From positions 1 through 20,343 of IMG/VR virus record IMGVR_UViG_3300030110_000442: a DNA stretch of 20,343 nt; one strand, written 5' to 3'. The stretch is from a virus. Positions 10,080-19,033 of this stretch are shown here, in pieces. The notes beneath the pieces were generated by a model. It searched no databases. It was given only the letters and a program-made list of their open reading frames with translations, and had not been told where the DNA came from. The stretch's first letter is position 1. Every line of letters begins with the position of its first letter. Made by a program: the position numbers and the translations under genes.

Positions 10080-11266
10080 TGGCAGTTACACCTGACCCAC
10101 TTGAAGACCTCAGAAAAAAAATTGAGGACTTTGATTTTGAAAAACAAAAATCTAGTTATGAATCACGTCTAGGTGAACTTGCACAACCACCTAGAAATTA
10201 TAATTTGTTTGATTTAGCTACAGACTTATCACGAGGTCTTACAGCACAACAACAAACAGATAGACCTGATTCTTTAGCTGGTGGTCTAGCATTAGGTTTT
10301 GGTGAAGCCTCACAACGTATGAAGGAAACACAAGCTGCTAGACAAAAGGCTAAACGTGAAATAGGTTTAGAAGCAGCTAGATTAGCAATGGAAGATGAAA
10401 GAAAAGCTATACAATATTTAGATGAAGCAGAGTATGAATTAGCTGTTTCTGAATCTGGTGCTGGCAAAACAACAGCAGACATGACCAACTTTAACTTTTA
10501 TAACAGTTTAGATGAAGATGGTAAGAAAACATGGAACACCATGAAAAACCAAGACCCAACTCAACTTTTGTTGTTAGAAACCATTAAAAGACAAGCTGCG
10601 TCAGCTGGGGGTTTAGATTTGTTACCGGGGCAAATAGAGATAGATAAAGCTTTTGGTAAAACCATTGCAGACTATAAATTAAAAGGTCAAGCACAAGTCA
10701 TTTCAAATCTAAGAAATTTATCTGAAAAAATAAACATACTTGATGGAACAATTAAAAATAATAAAGGTCAAAAATATAATGTGTCAGGACCCTTAATAGG
10801 TGTTCTAGATGATGCTGCTTTAGCTGTAGCATACCCTGATGCTGCTGGTTTTCGTTCTGACATAAGAGATATTGTGTTTCAGTCTTTAAGAGAAAAACTA
10901 GGTGCTCAGTTTACTGAAAAAGAAGGTGAAAGATTAGTTAATGCTGCTTTTAACTTTTACCTTGAGGAAGAGCAAAATATAGGCAGATTAAAAAGACTTT
11001 ACAAAACAATAGAAGACGCTGCCAACGCAAAAAACGAGGCGATAGCATATTTTGATGAGAAGGGTACGTTGCAAGGTTATAGCTTAAAAGCTCCAGTAAA
11101 TTTTAATGACATACATGCTTCAATGGTACAAGAAAGTGACTTTGATAATATTTCTGATGAAGATTTAGCAAAAATTATTAAAGATGAAAGAACAGAAATA
11201 AAAGAGAGGGAGGTTGCTATAGCAGTCGCAAGAAAAAGAGTAGAGGATAGACAGGAAGAACAGTGA
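10079..11266 (+). CDS. Helical internal virion protein, 395 aa
   Basis: This is a mainly alpha-helical, charged protein without membrane segments. The N-terminal 100 residues are Gln/Arg-rich, with 'FDLATDLSRGLTAQQQ' and 'LALGFGEASQRM'. The best conserved segment is in the second half: 'SGPLIGVLDDAALAVAYPDA', 'LREKLGAQFTEKEGERLVNA' and 'IGRLKRLYKTIEDAANAK', ending in an 'AIAYFDEKGTL' unit. This matches a family found repeatedly beside large ejection-type proteins in podovirus-like phages. An AAGGA Shine-Dalgarno lies about eight bases before ATG 10079. It overlaps the previous gene by one base and the next by four (GTGA), so it probably acts in a complex with them, but no activity is known to me. 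Confidence 0.6.
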   Translation: MAVTPDPLEDLRKKIEDFDFEKQKSSYESRLGELAQPPRNYNLFDLATDLSRGLTAQQQTDRPDSLAGGLALGFGEASQRMKETQAARQKAKREIGLEAARLAMEDERKAIQYLDEAEYELAVSESGAGKTTADMTNFNFYNSLDEDGKKTWNTMKNQDPTQLLLLETIKRQAASAGGLDLLPGQIEIDKAFGKTIADYKLKGQAQVISNLRNLSEKINILDGTIKNNKGQKYNVSGPLIGVLDDAALAVAYPDAAGFRSDIRDIVFQSLREKLGAQFTEKEGERLVNAAFNFYLEEEQNIGRLKRLYKTIEDAANAKNEAIAYFDEKGTLQGYSLKAPVNFNDIHASMVQESDFDNISDEDLAKIIKDERTEIKEREVAIAVARKRVEDRQEEQ

Positions 11267-14136
11267 TAATACAAAACACAGGAGTTTTAACTGCCTTACT
11301 AGATGAGGTTGACGCACAAGAAAGAAAAAAACTATCTCAAGAAGAGTTAGATTCTATGTCCACAGGTGATGTCTTAACCACAGCACTAACCAACATACCT
11401 TCAAGTGCTGTTCAGTTGGTTGCTGATATAACCATGCCTATAAGACATCCTATAGAGACAGCCACTTCTTTAATATCATTAGGTAAAGGTATTTATCAAC
11501 TCACAACTCCCGGTGAACAAGCAGATGAGCAAACAGCTAAAGCTGTAGGTGAGTTTTTTGCAGATAGATATGGCAGTTTAGATGGTTTTAAAAATGCTTT
11601 TGCAACTGACCCCTTGGGTGTTGCGAGTGATATATCTGTTGTTTTGACAGGTGGAGCAGCGTTAGCAGCTAAAGTACCGGGTATTGCTGGCAAAACCACT
11701 ACCATTGCATCCAAAGTAGGTGAAGCTATTGACCCAATAAAAGCCACAGGTAAATTAACAAAATTTACCGGTGATGTTATGGGCAAGGGTGTAACAGCTG
11801 GATTAGGTGTTGCTACTGGTTCAGGCTCTGATGCTTTAAAAATTGCATTTGAATCAGGTCAAGCTGGTGGTGATGCTCAGGCTGCGTTTTTAGCTAATAT
11901 AAGAGGTCAGGCTTCAGGTGAAGAAGTTTTAACTCAAGCTTTTGATGCGTTGAAAGAACAGTCAAAACAAAAAACAAAAGATTACAAAACTGGCATGGAA
12001 GTTGTCAAAGGTGCTGAAAAGAAAGTTGATTTTAAAGGCATTGAAGAAGTTTACCAGTCAGTCAAAGATGAGTTCACTATCAAAACAGAGAAGGGAAATG
12101 TTTTAAAAGGTGGAGCTACTTTGCAATCAAAATTTGATGAAATAGAGAAATTAATTACACAATGGAAAAATAATCCTGAACTGCATTTAGCTGAAAATGT
12201 TGATGCACTCAAACAAGCTGTGGATAGTCTGTATGTAGTGGGAAAAGATGGCATACCTGTTACAAGAGTTAGAAACGCAATACATGAAGAAATTGTAAGA
12301 CAAGTGCCTGAATATGCAGACACCATGAGAGCTTATGAACAAGCAGTAAAACTTGAAAAAGAAATTATGAAAGAATTGTCTCTTAATAAGACTGCTGCTG
12401 CTGGTACAACATTAAGAAAATTACAATCAGTCATGAGAAACAACGTAAACACCAACTATGGCAATAGAATGGAGATGTTGCGAAACCTTGACCCTGATTT
12501 ATTACCAGCACTATCAGGTCAAGCACTAACTTCTCTTACGCCTAGAGGATTACAAGGTATGACTTTTACTGGTCAAATGGGAGCTGGTGCTTTTGGTTAT
12601 GCAGACCCAATAACTTTAGCTGCAACACTACCAGCTCAATCTCCTAGACTGATGGGCGAACTTTATGAAAAACTAGGTAGAGCTTCTCGCTTTGCAAAAC
12701 CTGTTACAGATTTAGCTTCAAGCCCAGCCCTTCTACCAACAGCAAGAACCACTAGGGTTCTGGGTGAAATAGAAAGAGCTGGAGACTTTGGAATACCAGA
12801 AGAATTAAAAAGCCAAGACACGAAAGCTCTTGAAGAATTATTAAAAAATCTTGAGGACAATGCAGAAACTACAGAAGAAATATTAGGTTTTAACAAGAAA
12901 GAAATTAACGAAATTAGGTCAGATGCGTTGAATCTAAAAAAAGAAGTTGATGAAGATGAAGATGATGACTTAATTTTTTCTGCTGAAGGTGGAGTTATAA
13001 CTGCTGGTTCTAGTAAGGTTGTGTCTGACATTTTAGAAAAATACAAAGGCTTGATGCCACAAGGAACTTCACAAGCTGTAGATACAGAGCTGGTTTCTTT
13101 ACAAAAACTTTTGAATCAAACAAACAATCCAAAATTCAAAGACCAAACATACAAAAAATTAGAAGACTATCAAAAAAGATTGCAAGCTAACATCAATAGG
13201 TCAAACACCAATGATAGAGAGATGGAGACATTGACCATGATGAAAGATGCCTCTTCAACCTCAATAAAAGACGATATTGAGCAAAAACTACTTAAAGGTG
13301 ACGCTGATACTATAAATCAATTACAAGGTGCTAAATCTTTATATAAAAATTACATGGGTCTGTCTGACGAAAAAAACATAGAATTACAGAAAGAGGAAGC
13401 ATCTGATGAGATATTAAATCAGATGTTAAGTAAAAATTATAAAGCTAGTGACGTTGTAAATTTATTGTTTTCACACAACAAACTGGCTCCTAACAACGCA
13501 GTGCCTATTGCAATATCTAAACTAAAAAGCATGACTTTGCCTGAAGATTTTACACAGCTTGAAAATACCTTGAAAGATGGCGTTACAGTCAAAGCTTTTG
13601 TAGGCGATGATAAAAACCAAAGTGTGTCTGATTTGTCAAAAAACTTCACTGATGTGATAAAAAATCAAAAGAATATAGTTGATGAGTTGTTTAGCCCTAC
13701 TGAAATTATAAGAATGAAACAATTTAAAGCTAAAGCTTTACCCTCTTTGTCTAAAGAAATAAAAGACAACCCTGATGACTCTAAATTTATTATGGCATCA
13801 GCTTTAGAAAAAAAACAGTTACTAAACAATGACGCAAGACAAACTCTGATGCGACTTGAGGAGCCTCTTGTTGTTGATACTGTTGAACCAGAGTCTCCAG
13901 TAATCCAGTCTAATGAGTCTCAAGCGATTGATAGTATGGTTATGGAAGCACCTATGAATACTGGCGATCTACAGACTTCCATTGATAGTTTTCAAGTTCC
14001 GACAGTAGGAGGCAATATATTTTCTCCTAACAAAACATTATCTCCTCAACAAATGTTATCTCCTACTGTCTTACCCAATGAAGACGATAGGGAGATTGCC
14101 ATGAGGCAACAGATGGGTATTGCTGGTTTAGTCTAA
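11263..14136 (+). CDS. Large internal virion / DNA ejection-type protein, 957 aa
   Basis: This is the last and largest gene of the late operon, starting at GTG 11263 inside the GTGA overlap. Residues about 40-145 carry a recognisable pattern: 'ALTNIPSSAVQLVADI', 'HPIETATSLISLGKGIY', 'FADRYGSLDGFKNAFATDP' and the hydrophobic 'ISVVLTGGAALAAKVPGIAG'. This is typical of large ejection proteins of marine podoviruses. A long helical body follows, then 'NTNYGNRMEMLRNLDPDL' and 'ALTSLTPRGLQGM', another family landmark (about residues 395-430). An acidic stretch (KKEVDEDEDDDL, near residue 560) precedes a less conserved C-terminal half. The likely job is to enter the host envelope with the DNA. Its last nine bases are overlapped by an antisense gene. 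Confidence 0.6.
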   Translation: MIIQNTGVLTALLDEVDAQERKKLSQEELDSMSTGDVLTTALTNIPSSAVQLVADITMPIRHPIETATSLISLGKGIYQLTTPGEQADEQTAKAVGEFFADRYGSLDGFKNAFATDPLGVASDISVVLTGGAALAAKVPGIAGKTTTIASKVGEAIDPIKATGKLTKFTGDVMGKGVTAGLGVATGSGSDALKIAFESGQAGGDAQAAFLANIRGQASGEEVLTQAFDALKEQSKQKTKDYKTGMEVVKGAEKKVDFKGIEEVYQSVKDEFTIKTEKGNVLKGGATLQSKFDEIEKLITQWKNNPELHLAENVDALKQAVDSLYVVGKDGIPVTRVRNAIHEEIVRQVPEYADTMRAYEQAVKLEKEIMKELSLNKTAAAGTTLRKLQSVMRNNVNTNYGNRMEMLRNLDPDLLPALSGQALTSLTPRGLQGMTFTGQMGAGAFGYADPITLAATLPAQSPRLMGELYEKLGRASRFAKPVTDLASSPALLPTARTTRVLGEIERAGDFGIPEELKSQDTKALEELLKNLEDNAETTEEILGFNKKEINEIRSDALNLKKEVDEDEDDDLIFSAEGGVITAGSSKVVSDILEKYKGLMPQGTSQAVDTELVSLQKLLNQTNNPKFKDQTYKKLEDYQKRLQANINRSNTNDREMETLTMMKDASSTSIKDDIEQKLLKGDADTINQLQGAKSLYKNYMGLSDEKNIELQKEEASDEILNQMLSKNYKASDVVNLLFSHNKLAPNNAVPIAISKLKSMTLPEDFTQLENTLKDGVTVKAFVGDDKNQSVSDLSKNFTDVIKNQKNIVDELFSPTEIIRMKQFKAKALPSLSKEIKDNPDDSKFIMASALEKKQLLNNDARQTLMRLEEPLVVDTVEPESPVIQSNESQAIDSMVMEAPMNTGDLQTSIDSFQVPTVGGNIFSPNKTLSPQQMLSPTVLPNEDDREIAMRQQMGIAGLV

Positions 14137-14364
14137 GGACTCAGTACCTTTTATCATAGCTCCATCTACCTCGAAATCCATGTCATATCCCATGGTAGTT
14201 TGCCCATCTATCTCTATCTCTAAGTTCCTAGAGATAAGTCTTAGAAGAGCTGTCTGGTGGTGCAATGTAAGTCTGCTGTAAAGCTCAATGACCTCTGGTG
14301 CTTCTACCACAGGTTTATAGCTTTGAGGCACTGTCTTTTTAGCCATAATGTTTTTGAAGAACAT
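14128..14364 (-). CDS. Unrecognised 78-aa protein, partner of RHH gene
   Basis: The product is 78 residues, with a Lys-rich N terminus, a central helix ('VIELYSRLTLHHQTALLRLI') and an acidic C-terminal third with a 'GYDMDFEVDG' strand. The start at 14364 is preferred because its ATG shares a base with the stop of the upstream RHH-like gene (TAATG on the minus strand), which indicates coupling. An internal ATG at 14346 (residue 7) is the alternative; neither has a clear Shine-Dalgarno. The 3' end overlaps the end of the 957-aa gene on the opposite strand by nine bases. I do not recognise the family. The pairing suggests a joint role, for example in regulation. Confidence 0.6.
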   Translation of the reverse strand: MFFKNIMAKKTVPQSYKPVVEAPEVIELYSRLTLHHQTALLRLISRNLEIEIDGQTTMGYDMDFEVDGAMIKGTESLD

Positions 14365-14534
14365 TAGTCTGTAATTGTGTTCAAGCGTTTATGTTCCTTC
14401 TCAATAAGTAACTTGAGCTGGTTTATAATAGACCTGTGCTCTGTTTTACATATGTCTTGAAGCAAATCATAAGTCTTGACATCTACAGCCAAACTTTTTC
14501 TTTGTTTACTATCTAATACTGCTTGATTTTCCAT
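14364..14534 (-). CDS. Ribbon-helix-helix-like small protein (putative regulator)
   Basis: This 56-residue gene reads from ATG 14534 to the TAA at 14364-14366. After a short polar N terminus there is a strand-like stretch (KSLAVDVKTYDLL, residues 13-25), a helix, a short turn with a small and a charged residue (KTEHRS), and a second helix (IINQLKLLIEKEHKRL, 36-51). This is the size and layout of MetJ/Arc-type RHH DNA-binding domains, which bind operators as dimers. An in-frame ATG at 14543 would add MTH. Neither start has a strong Shine-Dalgarno. It lies upstream of and overlaps the 78-aa gene by one base, and faces a divergent 2OG oxygenase gene, so it could control that intergenic region. 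The RHH call rests on pattern only. Confidence 0.55.
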   Translation of the reverse strand: MENQAVLDSKQRKSLAVDVKTYDLLQDICKTEHRSIINQLKLLIEKEHKRLNTITD

Positions 14535-14576
14535 GTGGGTCATTCTACTAATTTTTGCAACAAATTACAAATATAT

Positions 14577-14613
14577 ATTCTATATTATATGTTAAACTAC
14601 AAAACCATGTACA
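14577..14613 (-). promoter_or_regulatory. Candidate divergent promoter region for RHH pair and oxygenase
   Basis: The spacer between the two divergent genes is very AT-rich. On the minus strand there is a perfect TATAAT (plus-strand ATTATA, 14584-14589) about 40-50 bases upstream of the RHH gene start, with a weak -35-like TGTACA 18 bases further upstream. The same bases read as TATTAT on the plus strand (14583-14588), but no convincing plus-strand -35 lies at the right distance. AT-richness alone makes such hits common. Confidence 0.3.
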
Positions 14614-15320
14614 CACTCAAGAACTATCTACTCAGTATGCAATCTCACTGGATGGTCAACCAAACCACTTACGATGCTGTGCAAGAGACTTTACCACTGA
14701 TAGCTAAGTACAGGGCTAGTGATGGTGTGGATAAGATGGGCAAAACCCCTGTACACAAAGTGGTTAAGAAGATATTTCCAGAGGTTTACAGAGTACCTTT
14801 GTTTAGAAGACACTTCTGTAAGTTGTTGGTGAAAGAGATCGAGCTGATGAAAAAAGAGATAGGGTTTGTAGGTAATGATGAAGAAGATGAGCTCAGACAG
14901 ATACCTGAGATTGTGTTGCGAGAGCAAGTGCCTGAGCTGTACAGGAACATGTGGTTTGTCACACAAACTGTGCTCAACCCAATCTTCAATGCGATATGGC
15001 AACGTGACTGTAAAGACCCCACCACAATACAGATAGCCAACTACAACCTGAAAGATAAGAAGCAAGGTGCATGGCATCATGACGAGAGCTCAGAAATCAG
15101 TGTGGTTGTTCCCTTGAACACTGGCTCCTATGTAGGAGGTGGCACTGAGTTCCATAATCATGGTGTGCTCAATCCTTTGCCTAATGGTCATGCTTTGATA
15201 TTCCCAAGCTTTACAAGTCTACACAGAGGTCTGCCAGTGGAGAGTGGCGACAGATACTTATTGGTTTTCTGGTTATGCGACAAGCAAAGGTCGATAGATT
15301 TGTACCAAGCTATCCCTTAA
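14589..15320 (+). CDS. 2-oxoglutarate/Fe(II) oxygenase, PLOD/P4H type
   Basis: The product is about 243 residues from ATG 14589. A second in-frame ATG at 14607 is equally possible, and neither has a Shine-Dalgarno. The C-terminal third shows the double-stranded beta-helix signature of prolyl/lysyl hydroxylase-type dioxygenases. His163 and Asp165 form the HxD pair (WHHDES), followed by 'VPLNTGSYVGGGTEF', then distal His212 (SLHRGLP) and Arg222 (GDRYLLVFWL), the 2-oxoglutarate salt-bridge residue. All three iron ligands and the Arg are intact, so activity is expected. The first 130 residues are helical and family-unassigned. The substrate is unknown: hydroxylation of a phage or host protein, or of a small molecule, are possible. 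It follows a divergent AT-rich spacer. Confidence 0.75.
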   Translation: MLNYKTMYTLKNYLLSMQSHWMVNQTTYDAVQETLPLIAKYRASDGVDKMGKTPVHKVVKKIFPEVYRVPLFRRHFCKLLVKEIELMKKEIGFVGNDEEDELRQIPEIVLREQVPELYRNMWFVTQTVLNPIFNAIWQRDCKDPTTIQIANYNLKDKKQGAWHHDESSEISVVVPLNTGSYVGGGTEFHNHGVLNPLPNGHALIFPSFTSLHRGLPVESGDRYLLVFWLCDKQRSIDLYQAIP

Positions 15321-15349
15321 AATTAATTAATATTTCTTTATACAAATAC

Positions 15350-15377
15350 TTGCACATTTGTGTACATATGCTATTAT
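15350..15377 (+). promoter_or_regulatory. Sigma70-type promoter with extended -10
   Basis: TTGCAC at 15350-15355 and TATTAT at 15372-15377 are separated by 16 bases, and TG at 15369-15370 gives an extended -10. The spacer includes an imperfect palindrome (TGCACATTTGTGTACA) that could serve as an operator. The site lies in the 90-bp gap before a five-gene small cluster, about 34 bases upstream of its first start codon, so it very likely drives that cluster. Confidence 0.55.
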
Positions 15378-15410
15378 AGACATGTGAGATTAATAACAAA
15401 GGAGAAAAAC

Positions 15411-15548
15411 ATGGAAAACATTAATCATTTAGTAGAAGAAACTCTTTTAGAGAGCGAGATTGAAGAATTGTTACTTGAAGTAAAAAACCTAGAAAGCTTA
15501 AAGAGAATACAAAAAGCTTTAAATCAAAGAAAAAAGGAGGTGGCGTAA
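15411..15548 (+). CDS. 45-aa acidic helical protein
   Basis: This is the first gene of the small cluster. ATG 15411 is preceded by AAAGGAG about six bases upstream, a strong Shine-Dalgarno. The 45-residue product is nearly all helix, with Glu/Leu-rich heptad-like spacing (ETLLESEIEELLLEVKNL) and a basic C terminus (QRKKEVA), so a small coiled coil is plausible. The function is not known. Small early phage proteins of this type often bind and redirect host proteins, but nothing in the sequence identifies a target. A hairpin sits over its stop codon. Confidence 0.65.
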   Translation: MENINHLVEETLLESEIEELLLEVKNLESLKRIQKALNQRKKEVA

Positions 15549-15554
15549 GCCACC
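15539..15554 (+). other. GNRA-tetraloop hairpin over a stop codon
   Basis: GGTGGC (15539-15544) and GCCACC (15549-15554) form a perfect 6-bp GC-rich stem closing a GTAA (GUAA in RNA) loop. The loop contains the TAA stop of the 45-aa gene. The left arm extends a consensus AGGAGG (15535-15540), and a few more pairs with CTC may form past a bulge. It has no T-run, so it is not a typical intrinsic terminator. Confidence 0.5.
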
Positions 15555-15573
15555 CCTCTCACTGGAGAAGATT

Positions 15574-16439: not shown

Positions 16440-17209
16440 TACAAGTCTCCTAGCTCTATGGTTTGGGTTCCTTCTAAGCCATAGGGCACAAACTTATCTT
16501 CTTCTTTACATCTGAGTAACAAAGACAAAGCCTGTTGGTTCTTAGCTCTAGCATACTCCATAGCTTCATCAGACAAGGTATAAACCACATAAGGATAAGG
16601 ATGAGTCTTCTCTTGTGCTAAGAAGTTAAACTTACCAGCTGGCAAATCTAAAGACCTACAAGCATCAACATATAAAGCTGCTTGCATATGATAATTAAAA
16701 GAGTTGATGGCTTGCTTGAATCCTCTGAAAGAAGCATCTCTACAAGTCTTTAAATCCCACACATCTACATTGTCGTACCAATCCATTCTACATTTGAATG
16801 GATGACCATGATAAGTAAACATCAATGTGCACTCGACCTTGTGGTCTTCTTTAGGTATGTATTCTTTGACCAGCTCTCTTCTCTCCATGCACAGATCGTA
16901 CAGGTCTTGTGTGATAGGAGTTCTGTTACCTACAGTAGCCAAGAAGTCTTCATATTCAGCCTTGCCTACCTTGGTTCTTCTGTCTATGTTGGGCTGTATA
17001 ACAAACTCTTCATCAAACTTATGATGTTCTAAGAACACTGTGTGTTGCACTCTGCCTTCCAGCAAAGCTGGAGAGGGTGTCAACCCTTTCTTGTTCTTCC
17101 ATGTATATGGACACTTAATCACGCTGGTTAGATCGTGTGACCTAAACGCTGGTATTGAATCATATTGCTCATAGGGTATGTCTTCATACAGACCTTCTTT
17201 AAACTCCAT
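16436..17209 (-). CDS. PD-(D/E)XK exonuclease, RecE/DUF3799-like
   Basis: The 257-residue product fits the phage and ExoVIII-like nuclease family that processes double-stranded DNA ends for recombination or end repair. Motifs are in the expected order. GRVQHTVFLE (52-61) carries the conserved His56 and Glu61. KCRMDWYD carries the metal-binding Asp143. VWDLKT carries Asp152 and Lys154 of the D-x-K core. MQAALY gives the QxxxY motif (Gln176, Tyr180). All key residues are intact. ATG 17209 has a textbook Shine-Dalgarno (AGGAG, six bases away) and overlaps the upstream oxygenase gene by eleven bases. As the last gene of an SSB-led operon, it probably works with SSB in phage replication or recombination. 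A matching annealase is not seen in the window. Confidence 0.75.
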   Translation of the reverse strand: MEFKEGLYEDIPYEQYDSIPAFRSHDLTSVIKCPYTWKNKKGLTPSPALLEGRVQHTVFLEHHKFDEEFVIQPNIDRRTKVGKAEYEDFLATVGNRTPITQDLYDLCMERRELVKEYIPKEDHKVECTLMFTYHGHPFKCRMDWYDNVDVWDLKTCRDASFRGFKQAINSFNYHMQAALYVDACRSLDLPAGKFNFLAQEKTHPYPYVVYTLSDEAMEYARAKNQQALSLLLRCKEEDKFVPYGLEGTQTIELGDLY

Positions 17210-17918
17210 CTTTCGCTCCTTTCATTTGTTCTTCTGTTACATCAAAGCAATTCATATTGCCAGCCACTGTCCTTCTCTCTCCTGAACCGAAGAAAGGGTA
17301 AACTGCATGTTGCATCCAAGATGGAAACAATAACAACTTACCCTCCTCTGGTTTCACATATCGAGACTGTGAAGGTCTTAACCTCTCTGGGTCAGAGGTC
17401 TGGTTAAGACCATATGTGAAATTGATATACCCATCTATTACTCCAGATGAGTTGTATAAATTGTAATCTTCTACCTCTTGTCCATCAGCTGTCTTACCTA
17501 TCTGCTCTGGCACTTTTGTCCAAGTAGTAAAGCTGATACCCATAGGTGAAGCTGTTAGGTGGTCATGTATAGGGTTGTAGTCACCCTCATAGCTATGCAC
17601 TGACCATAGTTTGTCTGTCACGACTTGCTTAGGTCTTATCATGGTTCCTGTCTGTTCTACGAAGTGTCTGAGATAAGCCACTCCTAAGTTCTCAACCATA
17701 GCTCTAAAGTCTTTGAGTTGGTCGCACTCAAAATCCATAGACAGTTGTTGTCCTTGATGTATCTGTCCTACCAACTCATTGCTGAGTGATTGTCTGTCTG
17801 GATTTTGTAATTCTTTGTCTAAGTAAGTGTTGAGTGTTTGTATTGTATTTGGAGACATTTGATGTTCCATCATTATGGCTGATGGTAGGTTGTAGATGTC
17901 ATACTCTAAACTATTCAA
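17199..17918 (-). CDS. 2OG-Fe(II) oxygenase, second type (putative hydroxylase)
   Basis: The product is 239 residues. It resembles the 2OG-FeII_Oxy_5 type common in cyanophages and other marine phages. 'WSVHSYEGDYNPIHDHLT' gives His118 and His120 in the first ligand motif. 'GKLLLFPSWMQHAVYPFFGSG' gives distal His204, followed by Arg215/Arg216 and 'AGNMNCF'. The start is TTG at 17918, chosen because TAAGGAA (17924-17930) is correctly spaced and the codon overlaps the end of the DUF3310 gene. The nearest ATGs (17873, 17870) have no Shine-Dalgarno. This gene sits inside the replication operon, unlike the PLOD-type oxygenase at 14589. The substrate is unknown, and HxH in place of HxD should be checked. 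Confidence 0.7.
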   Translation of the reverse strand: MNSLEYDIYNLPSAIMMEHQMSPNTIQTLNTYLDKELQNPDRQSLSNELVGQIHQGQQLSMDFECDQLKDFRAMVENLGVAYLRHFVEQTGTMIRPKQVVTDKLWSVHSYEGDYNPIHDHLTASPMGISFTTWTKVPEQIGKTADGQEVEDYNLYNSSGVIDGYINFTYGLNQTSDPERLRPSQSRYVKPEEGKLLLFPSWMQHAVYPFFGSGERRTVAGNMNCFDVTEEQMKGAKDGV

Positions 17919-18980: not shown

Positions 18981-19008
18981 ATTTTACACACTTTACCACA
19001 AACTGCAA
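18981..19008 (-). promoter_or_regulatory. Promoter of the replication operon
   Basis: Read on the minus strand, TTGCAG (plus-strand CTGCAA, 19003-19008) and TAAAAT (plus-strand ATTTTA, 18981-18986) are 16 bases apart. The same layout occurs in the promoter at 15350-15377. It lies about 47 bases upstream of the SSB start, in the gap shared with the divergent primase gene. I see no equally good promoter for the primase on the plus strand. Confidence 0.5.
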
Positions 19009-19033
19009 CAGACCTAACTAAAAGAGATAATTG

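Follow-up and report, generated by a model that had tools for sequence, protein, structure and literature searches.

A small RHH-like gene and its constant partner form a candidate self-regulating operon in uncultured podovirus-like phages

The window analysed here is the whole stretch of DNA given by IMG/VR record IMGVR_UViG_3300030110_000442, which is 20,343 nucleotides long. Two small open reading frames (ORFs) lie on its minus strand, facing the end of a plus-strand ORF of 957 codons (11263..14136) and diverging from a gene for a 2OG-Fe(II) oxygenase (Table 1). The first encodes a 56-residue protein resembling ribbon-helix-helix (RHH) regulators, and the second encodes a 78-residue protein that we call P78. 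At position 14364, one base of the sequence TAATG is common to the stop codon of the RHH-like ORF and the start codon of P78, an arrangement that has the layout typical of translational coupling. The RHH-like ORF, which ends at 14364, contains two in-frame ATGs, at 14534 (56 aa) and 14543 (59 aa). Because the MTH codons upstream of the 56-aa start are not conserved, and because the outer ATG overlaps the predicted -10 hexamer (14547-14542), we favour the 56-aa form, and the ATG at 14534 is likely the true start. The 3' end of P78 and the stop of the 957-codon ORF share nine bases (14128-14136). Both minus-strand ORFs, their TAATG link and this overlap were thus confirmed as described in the initial annotation. 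As it had also reported, no terminator-like site was found in the window between the convergent units.

The genes on either side of the pair were also examined. The 957-codon gene had been labelled an ejection gene. It occupies the place of the "DNA transfer protein" of phage DSL-LC04 and shows a marginal local similarity to it (E=0.003 over 67 aa), on which the label rests; it matched no PHROG, and the label is unproven. Among annotated tail proteins, the closest, with 38% identity, is the stabilization protein of phage DSL-LC04; a nuclease gene stands at the equivalent place in that genome. Most related loci retain the divergent 2OG oxygenase, with about 2 kb of extra DNA between it and the pair in some lineages. 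A second, different 2OG-Fe(II) oxygenase gene is present at 17199-17918 on the minus strand, and both oxygenase genes are conserved in many relatives.

Table 1. Coordinates of the genes and predicted control elements around the pair.
Feature	Position	Strand	Remarks
RHH-like protein gene (56 aa), candidate repressor	14364..14534	-	59 aa if the start is 14543
P78 gene (78 aa), partner	14128..14364	-	stop-start coupled (TAATG)
Predicted promoter of the pair	14542..14570	-	TTGTAA, 17 bp, TAGAAT
Box A, candidate operator	14555..14570	unassigned	TTGTAATTTGTTGCAA (minus strand reading); TTGYA-N6-TRYAA
Predicted promoter of the divergent 2OG oxygenase	14565..14593	+	TTACAA, 17 bp, TATGTT; inferred from the sequence
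Divergent 2OG-Fe(II) oxygenase gene	14607..15320	+	
Repeated promoter module, about 85 bp	15327..15413	+	TTGCAC-16-TATTAT, leader and AGGAG (TATGTGAGATTAATAACAAAGGAG); before the gene at 15411; E=2.3e-18
Box B, candidate operator	15350..15365	+	TTGCACATTTGTGTAC; 9/10 positions; lies within the next operon's promoter module

Relatives were collected by searching IMG/VR with P78 as a single sequence (42 loci), with a P78 profile (190 stretches confirmed, the best 80 retained) and with the RHH-like protein (30 loci). In 141 of the 141 fetched loci that hold the region, among which 89 pair sequences are distinct, the RHH-like gene and P78 are adjacent and co-oriented, and neither occurs alone in any of them. 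The comparison of synteny proposed as a check in the initial annotation therefore placed the pair in every related locus, and the neighbouring genes around it are largely kept. Among the relatives, synonymous differences outnumber non-synonymous ones in both genes, which indicates that the RHH-like protein and P78 are both under purifying selection. Given this excess and the unbroken co-oriented adjacency, the two ORFs are more than chance. In some relatives (L017 and L018; G001 22301-22552), P78 is separated from the long convergent gene by a small additional gene of about 84 codons, which also overlaps the P78 stop.

We also scanned 84,980 bacterial and archaeal species genomes, where a homologue of the pair occurred on one contig, in a Maricaulis MAG. 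This contig (L087) is 7.2 kb long and may be either a hint of the host or a mis-binned phage contig. A tblastn search of the INPHARED phages with both proteins returned no relevant match, and no cultured phage in that collection has either of them. Judged by sequence comparison, an uncultured podovirus-like group carries the pair as a fixed core module.

AlphaFold modelled the RHH-like protein as a monomer consisting of an extended stretch followed by helices at residues 19-31 and 36-55, with a mean pLDDT of 71.5. The pattern of the superfamily is a short strand and two helices within about 45-55 residues; the extended stretch was not assigned as a strand in the model. Helix 2 reaches residue 55 of 56, and the protein ends about one residue later. 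PHROG 3180 (Arc-like repressors), a family without a curated cut-off, matched 13 of 23 members (E 0.002-0.005), and this Arc-like family picked only the RHH-like gene in three whole records. The Pfam families RHH_1 and RHH_5 matched a few members under the cut-off (E 0.036-0.14), the Pfam RHH models gave no match to the protein of the window, and no member reached the curated Pfam cut-off for the superfamily. Foldseek and VIA-align searches with the model returned no match. Sequence and profile searches of the PDB returned no convincing match; the sole match in the profile searches, a poxvirus Bcl-2 protein (E=0.05-0.08), was taken as chance. Comparisons by hhalign with single Arc or CopG sequences were uninformative because a single sequence makes a poor profile.

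The conserved residues provide further clues. The motif RKSLA-x-D is invariant across 19 diverse members. The turn before helix 2, described as G-x-S/T/N for RelB (PMC2812701), keeps S/T at position 35; its usual glycine has given way, in most cases to H, R or N. The RHH patterning recognised in the initial annotation thus gains from the extended-helix-helix model and from the weak matches to Arc-like PHROGs, and loses from scores below curated thresholds and from the empty Foldseek search. Neither of the two outcomes that the initial annotation named as refuting its view thus occurred. We consider the assignment plausible but weak and take the RHH fold as likely. Binding of DNA by a dimer through the strand is pointed to indirectly by the invariant RKSLA-x-D and by a conserved two-arm box in the promoters described below.

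P78 has invariant residues at 18 of its 78 positions. It was modelled by AlphaFold as two helices followed by four strands (pLDDT 81). No family in PHROGs, Pfam, NCBIfam or PADLOC matched the protein, no match to it was found in the PDB or BFVD, and Foldseek and VIA-align matched nothing to its model.

A promoter of the form TTGYA, 17 bp, TAnnnT precedes the RHH-like gene in 28 of 31 diverse representatives, which share less than 80% identity. Its spacer holds a second conserved arm, TRYAA. With the left arm and the -10 as the only anchors for the promoters, this right arm carried 2.2 and 1.7 bits at its core, compared with about 0.1-0.2 bits at positions 17-20, and it matched at 4/5 or 5/5 positions in all 28 anchored promoters. 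The full box, TTGYA-N6-TRYAA, is present at 10/10 in about two thirds of the representatives and in 0.34% of shuffled 75-bp stretches, a comparison in which the related promoters are non-independent samples and the region is AT-rich. Within the window, box A alone scores 10/10. It covers the -35 and the spacer of the RHH promoter and also the apparent -35 of the oxygenase promoter on the opposite strand. A repeat search flagged neither box A nor box B, both of which have short, degenerate arms. Box counts over complete genomes were a poor guide to whether sites were intergenic or coding because the ORF caller over-extended genes across known spacers.

The start codon of the RHH-like gene at 14534 is 7 nt past the -10 hexamer, and the distance is 6-9 nt in about 17 of 28 representatives. 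With the ATG so close to this hexamer, the gene is probably translated from a leaderless mRNA. The lambda cI message from PRM is a well-known leaderless mRNA. Unlike the RHH-like gene, the genes behind box B have a clear ribosome site.

Scanning the window with a position weight matrix of the RHH promoters ranked a site at 15348, before the gene at 15411, next after box A, and box-B promoters ranked next in several relatives too. Box B belongs to the repeated promoter module of about 85 bp. In relatives, this module stands at the heads of operons in 1-4 copies per genome, the structural cluster included; a 42.8-kb relative (G002) carries two copies between the gene for the major head protein and the tail genes. 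Most lineages with a new unit after the oxygenase gene keep the module there, with the box at 9/10 or 10/10 in 26 of 39. A degenerate box-B pattern run against 2.9 million viral contigs recovered 11 contigs, all in this phage group. Not every promoter of these genomes has the box: in relatives, the promoter region of the 18251 gene, which served as an internal control, shows it no more often than chance and has no second arm. A box-like 9/10 site upstream of that gene in the window (about 18996-19011, minus strand) was accordingly dropped as a target. A strong terminator-like hairpin directed leftward (minus strand) occupies 15537-15556, and no minus-strand gene ends there.

With moderate confidence, we propose that the pair is an autoregulated operon, in which the first gene encodes an Arc/CopG-like RHH repressor acting on boxes A and B and P78 modulates its action. 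The two arms of TTGYA-N6-TRYAA, which lie one helical turn apart, probably serve as binding sites for RHH dimers, which would repress rather than activate. Binding at box A would close the pair's own promoter and the divergent 2OG oxygenase promoter together, because the box overlies the -35 and spacer of the one and the -35 of the other. Binding at box B would close the promoter of the next accessory operon, and in relatives further boxes at promoters within the structural cluster may come under the same control. P78 would be made from the same mRNA through stop-start coupling and would probably modulate the repressor, as its co-repressor or anti-repressor, or work alongside it at a fixed ratio. 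What the sequence shows is the two ORFs, their invariant pairing, selection acting on either protein, and the conserved box with its position in the promoters; the RHH fold, binding to DNA, repression and the action of P78 are inferred from it. The presence of the box at the promoter of the accessory operon, and at promoters of the structural cluster in relatives, fits a role in gene timing. A switch between early and late transcription, as suggested in the initial annotation, would be a guess. More tentatively, P78 could be the founder of a new small-regulator family in phages, its fold unmatched in solved structures, and serve as the obligate partner of the RHH-like protein in a two-protein switch. 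Through a common 16-bp operator, this switch would co-ordinate the accessory and the structural promoters in a large group of uncultured podoviruses.

The strongest rival to the repressor operon takes the box for an extended promoter element that the host RNA polymerase, a phage-modified one or another phage factor would read, while the RHH-like pair acts elsewhere. This would account for the fixed phase of the box to the -35 in both the RHH and the B promoters. However, the 18251 promoters lack the second arm in the same genomes, the tightest version of the box is found at the RHH-like gene itself, and a small dimeric repressor would need just such a site, with two arms one turn apart over a promoter. 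We therefore judge this explanation unlikely. A DNA-binding pair might instead serve a structural or DNA-handling role, such as genome compaction or packaging, without controlling promoters. RHH proteins are also employed as relaxosome or partition proteins, and PHROG 509 (small terminase) gave weak matches to 4 of 23 RHH-like members. The boxes, though, lie within promoters instead of forming arrays or marking the genome ends, and we hold such a role to be quite improbable.

Two further models fit the data less well than the repressor operon. Small overlapping genes with the RHH-like one first and an autoregulatory-looking box would suit a type II toxin-antitoxin system composed of an RHH antitoxin and P78 as the toxin. 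Such an antitoxin would be expected to carry a C-terminal toxin-binding tail, whereas the modelled protein stops about one residue after helix 2; P78 matched no toxin family or fold in PADLOC, Pfam, the PDB or BFVD; and all relatives carry the pair at one fixed place instead of in a patchy pattern. These points make a toxin-antitoxin system very improbable. The initial annotation had considered that the pair acts either by binding the divergent AT-rich spacer or by antisense transcription into the late operon. The conserved two-arm box over outward promoters lends sequence support to the former, and the latter has nothing in its favour beyond the convergent layout. That layout is consistent: a long convergent ORF is present in 69 of the 69 loci with enough flank, the stops overlap by 4-27 nt in 42, and just 3 of 76 distinct relatives have a terminator-like site 120 bases or less from the junction. 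Overlapping stops are nevertheless common in compact phage genomes, and about 25 genomes have their next long convergent gene 70-330 bases away, with a small extra gene in between in the inspected genome G001. Moreover, both genes are selected at the protein level, which antisense action or collision with the end of the late operon would not need. We regard an operon acting mainly in this way as the least probable of the explanations considered.

In a widespread group of uncultured bacterial viruses, two tiny genes that always occur together thus look like a self-regulating DNA-binding switch. If the repressor operon is confirmed, it would provide the first predicted transcription regulator for this large phage group, with a defined operator and target promoters that are testable with synthetic DNA and without a cultured phage. 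The conserved P78 family, whose fold is unmatched, would gain a known partner and hence a likely process. It would also reveal a regulatory operon beside the ejection genes, as in the immI region of P22, yet invariant and with an unrelated second gene.

The proposed repressor can be compared with known RHH systems. It shares with PHROG 3180 and Pfam RHH_1 (CopG) its length, the extended-helix-helix order and an R-S/T at the start of helix 2, and differs in that its matches fall under curated thresholds and the turn glycine is missing. Arc, which contacts DNA through Q9, N11 and R13, aligns gap-free to the RHH-like protein at offset +3, a score equalled by 4% of shuffles, and these positions would correspond to R, S and A. 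The RHH protein RelB recognises the operator hexad [A/T]TGT[A/C]A, with dimers on one face of the DNA (PMC2812701), and the half-site of the box resembles this hexad. In relO, two 12-bp palindromes abut each other, whereas the arms of TTGYA-N6-TRYAA are 10 bp apart; unlike RelB, the candidate repressor has no toxin-binding tail in its model. The likeness to immI of the short-tailed phage P22 lies in an RHH-first operon next to what is putatively the last DNA-ejection gene, with a first gene near Arc in size. The immI region (mnt-arc-ant, sieA) is located between genes 16 and 9 and is very variable among P22-like phages (PMC8022706). The pair described here resembles the arc operon in anatomy but is not a member of immI, because in place of the Ant antirepressor its second gene encodes the 78-aa P78, unrelated to anything found, because its operon runs against the late genes, and because it is invariant in its own group.
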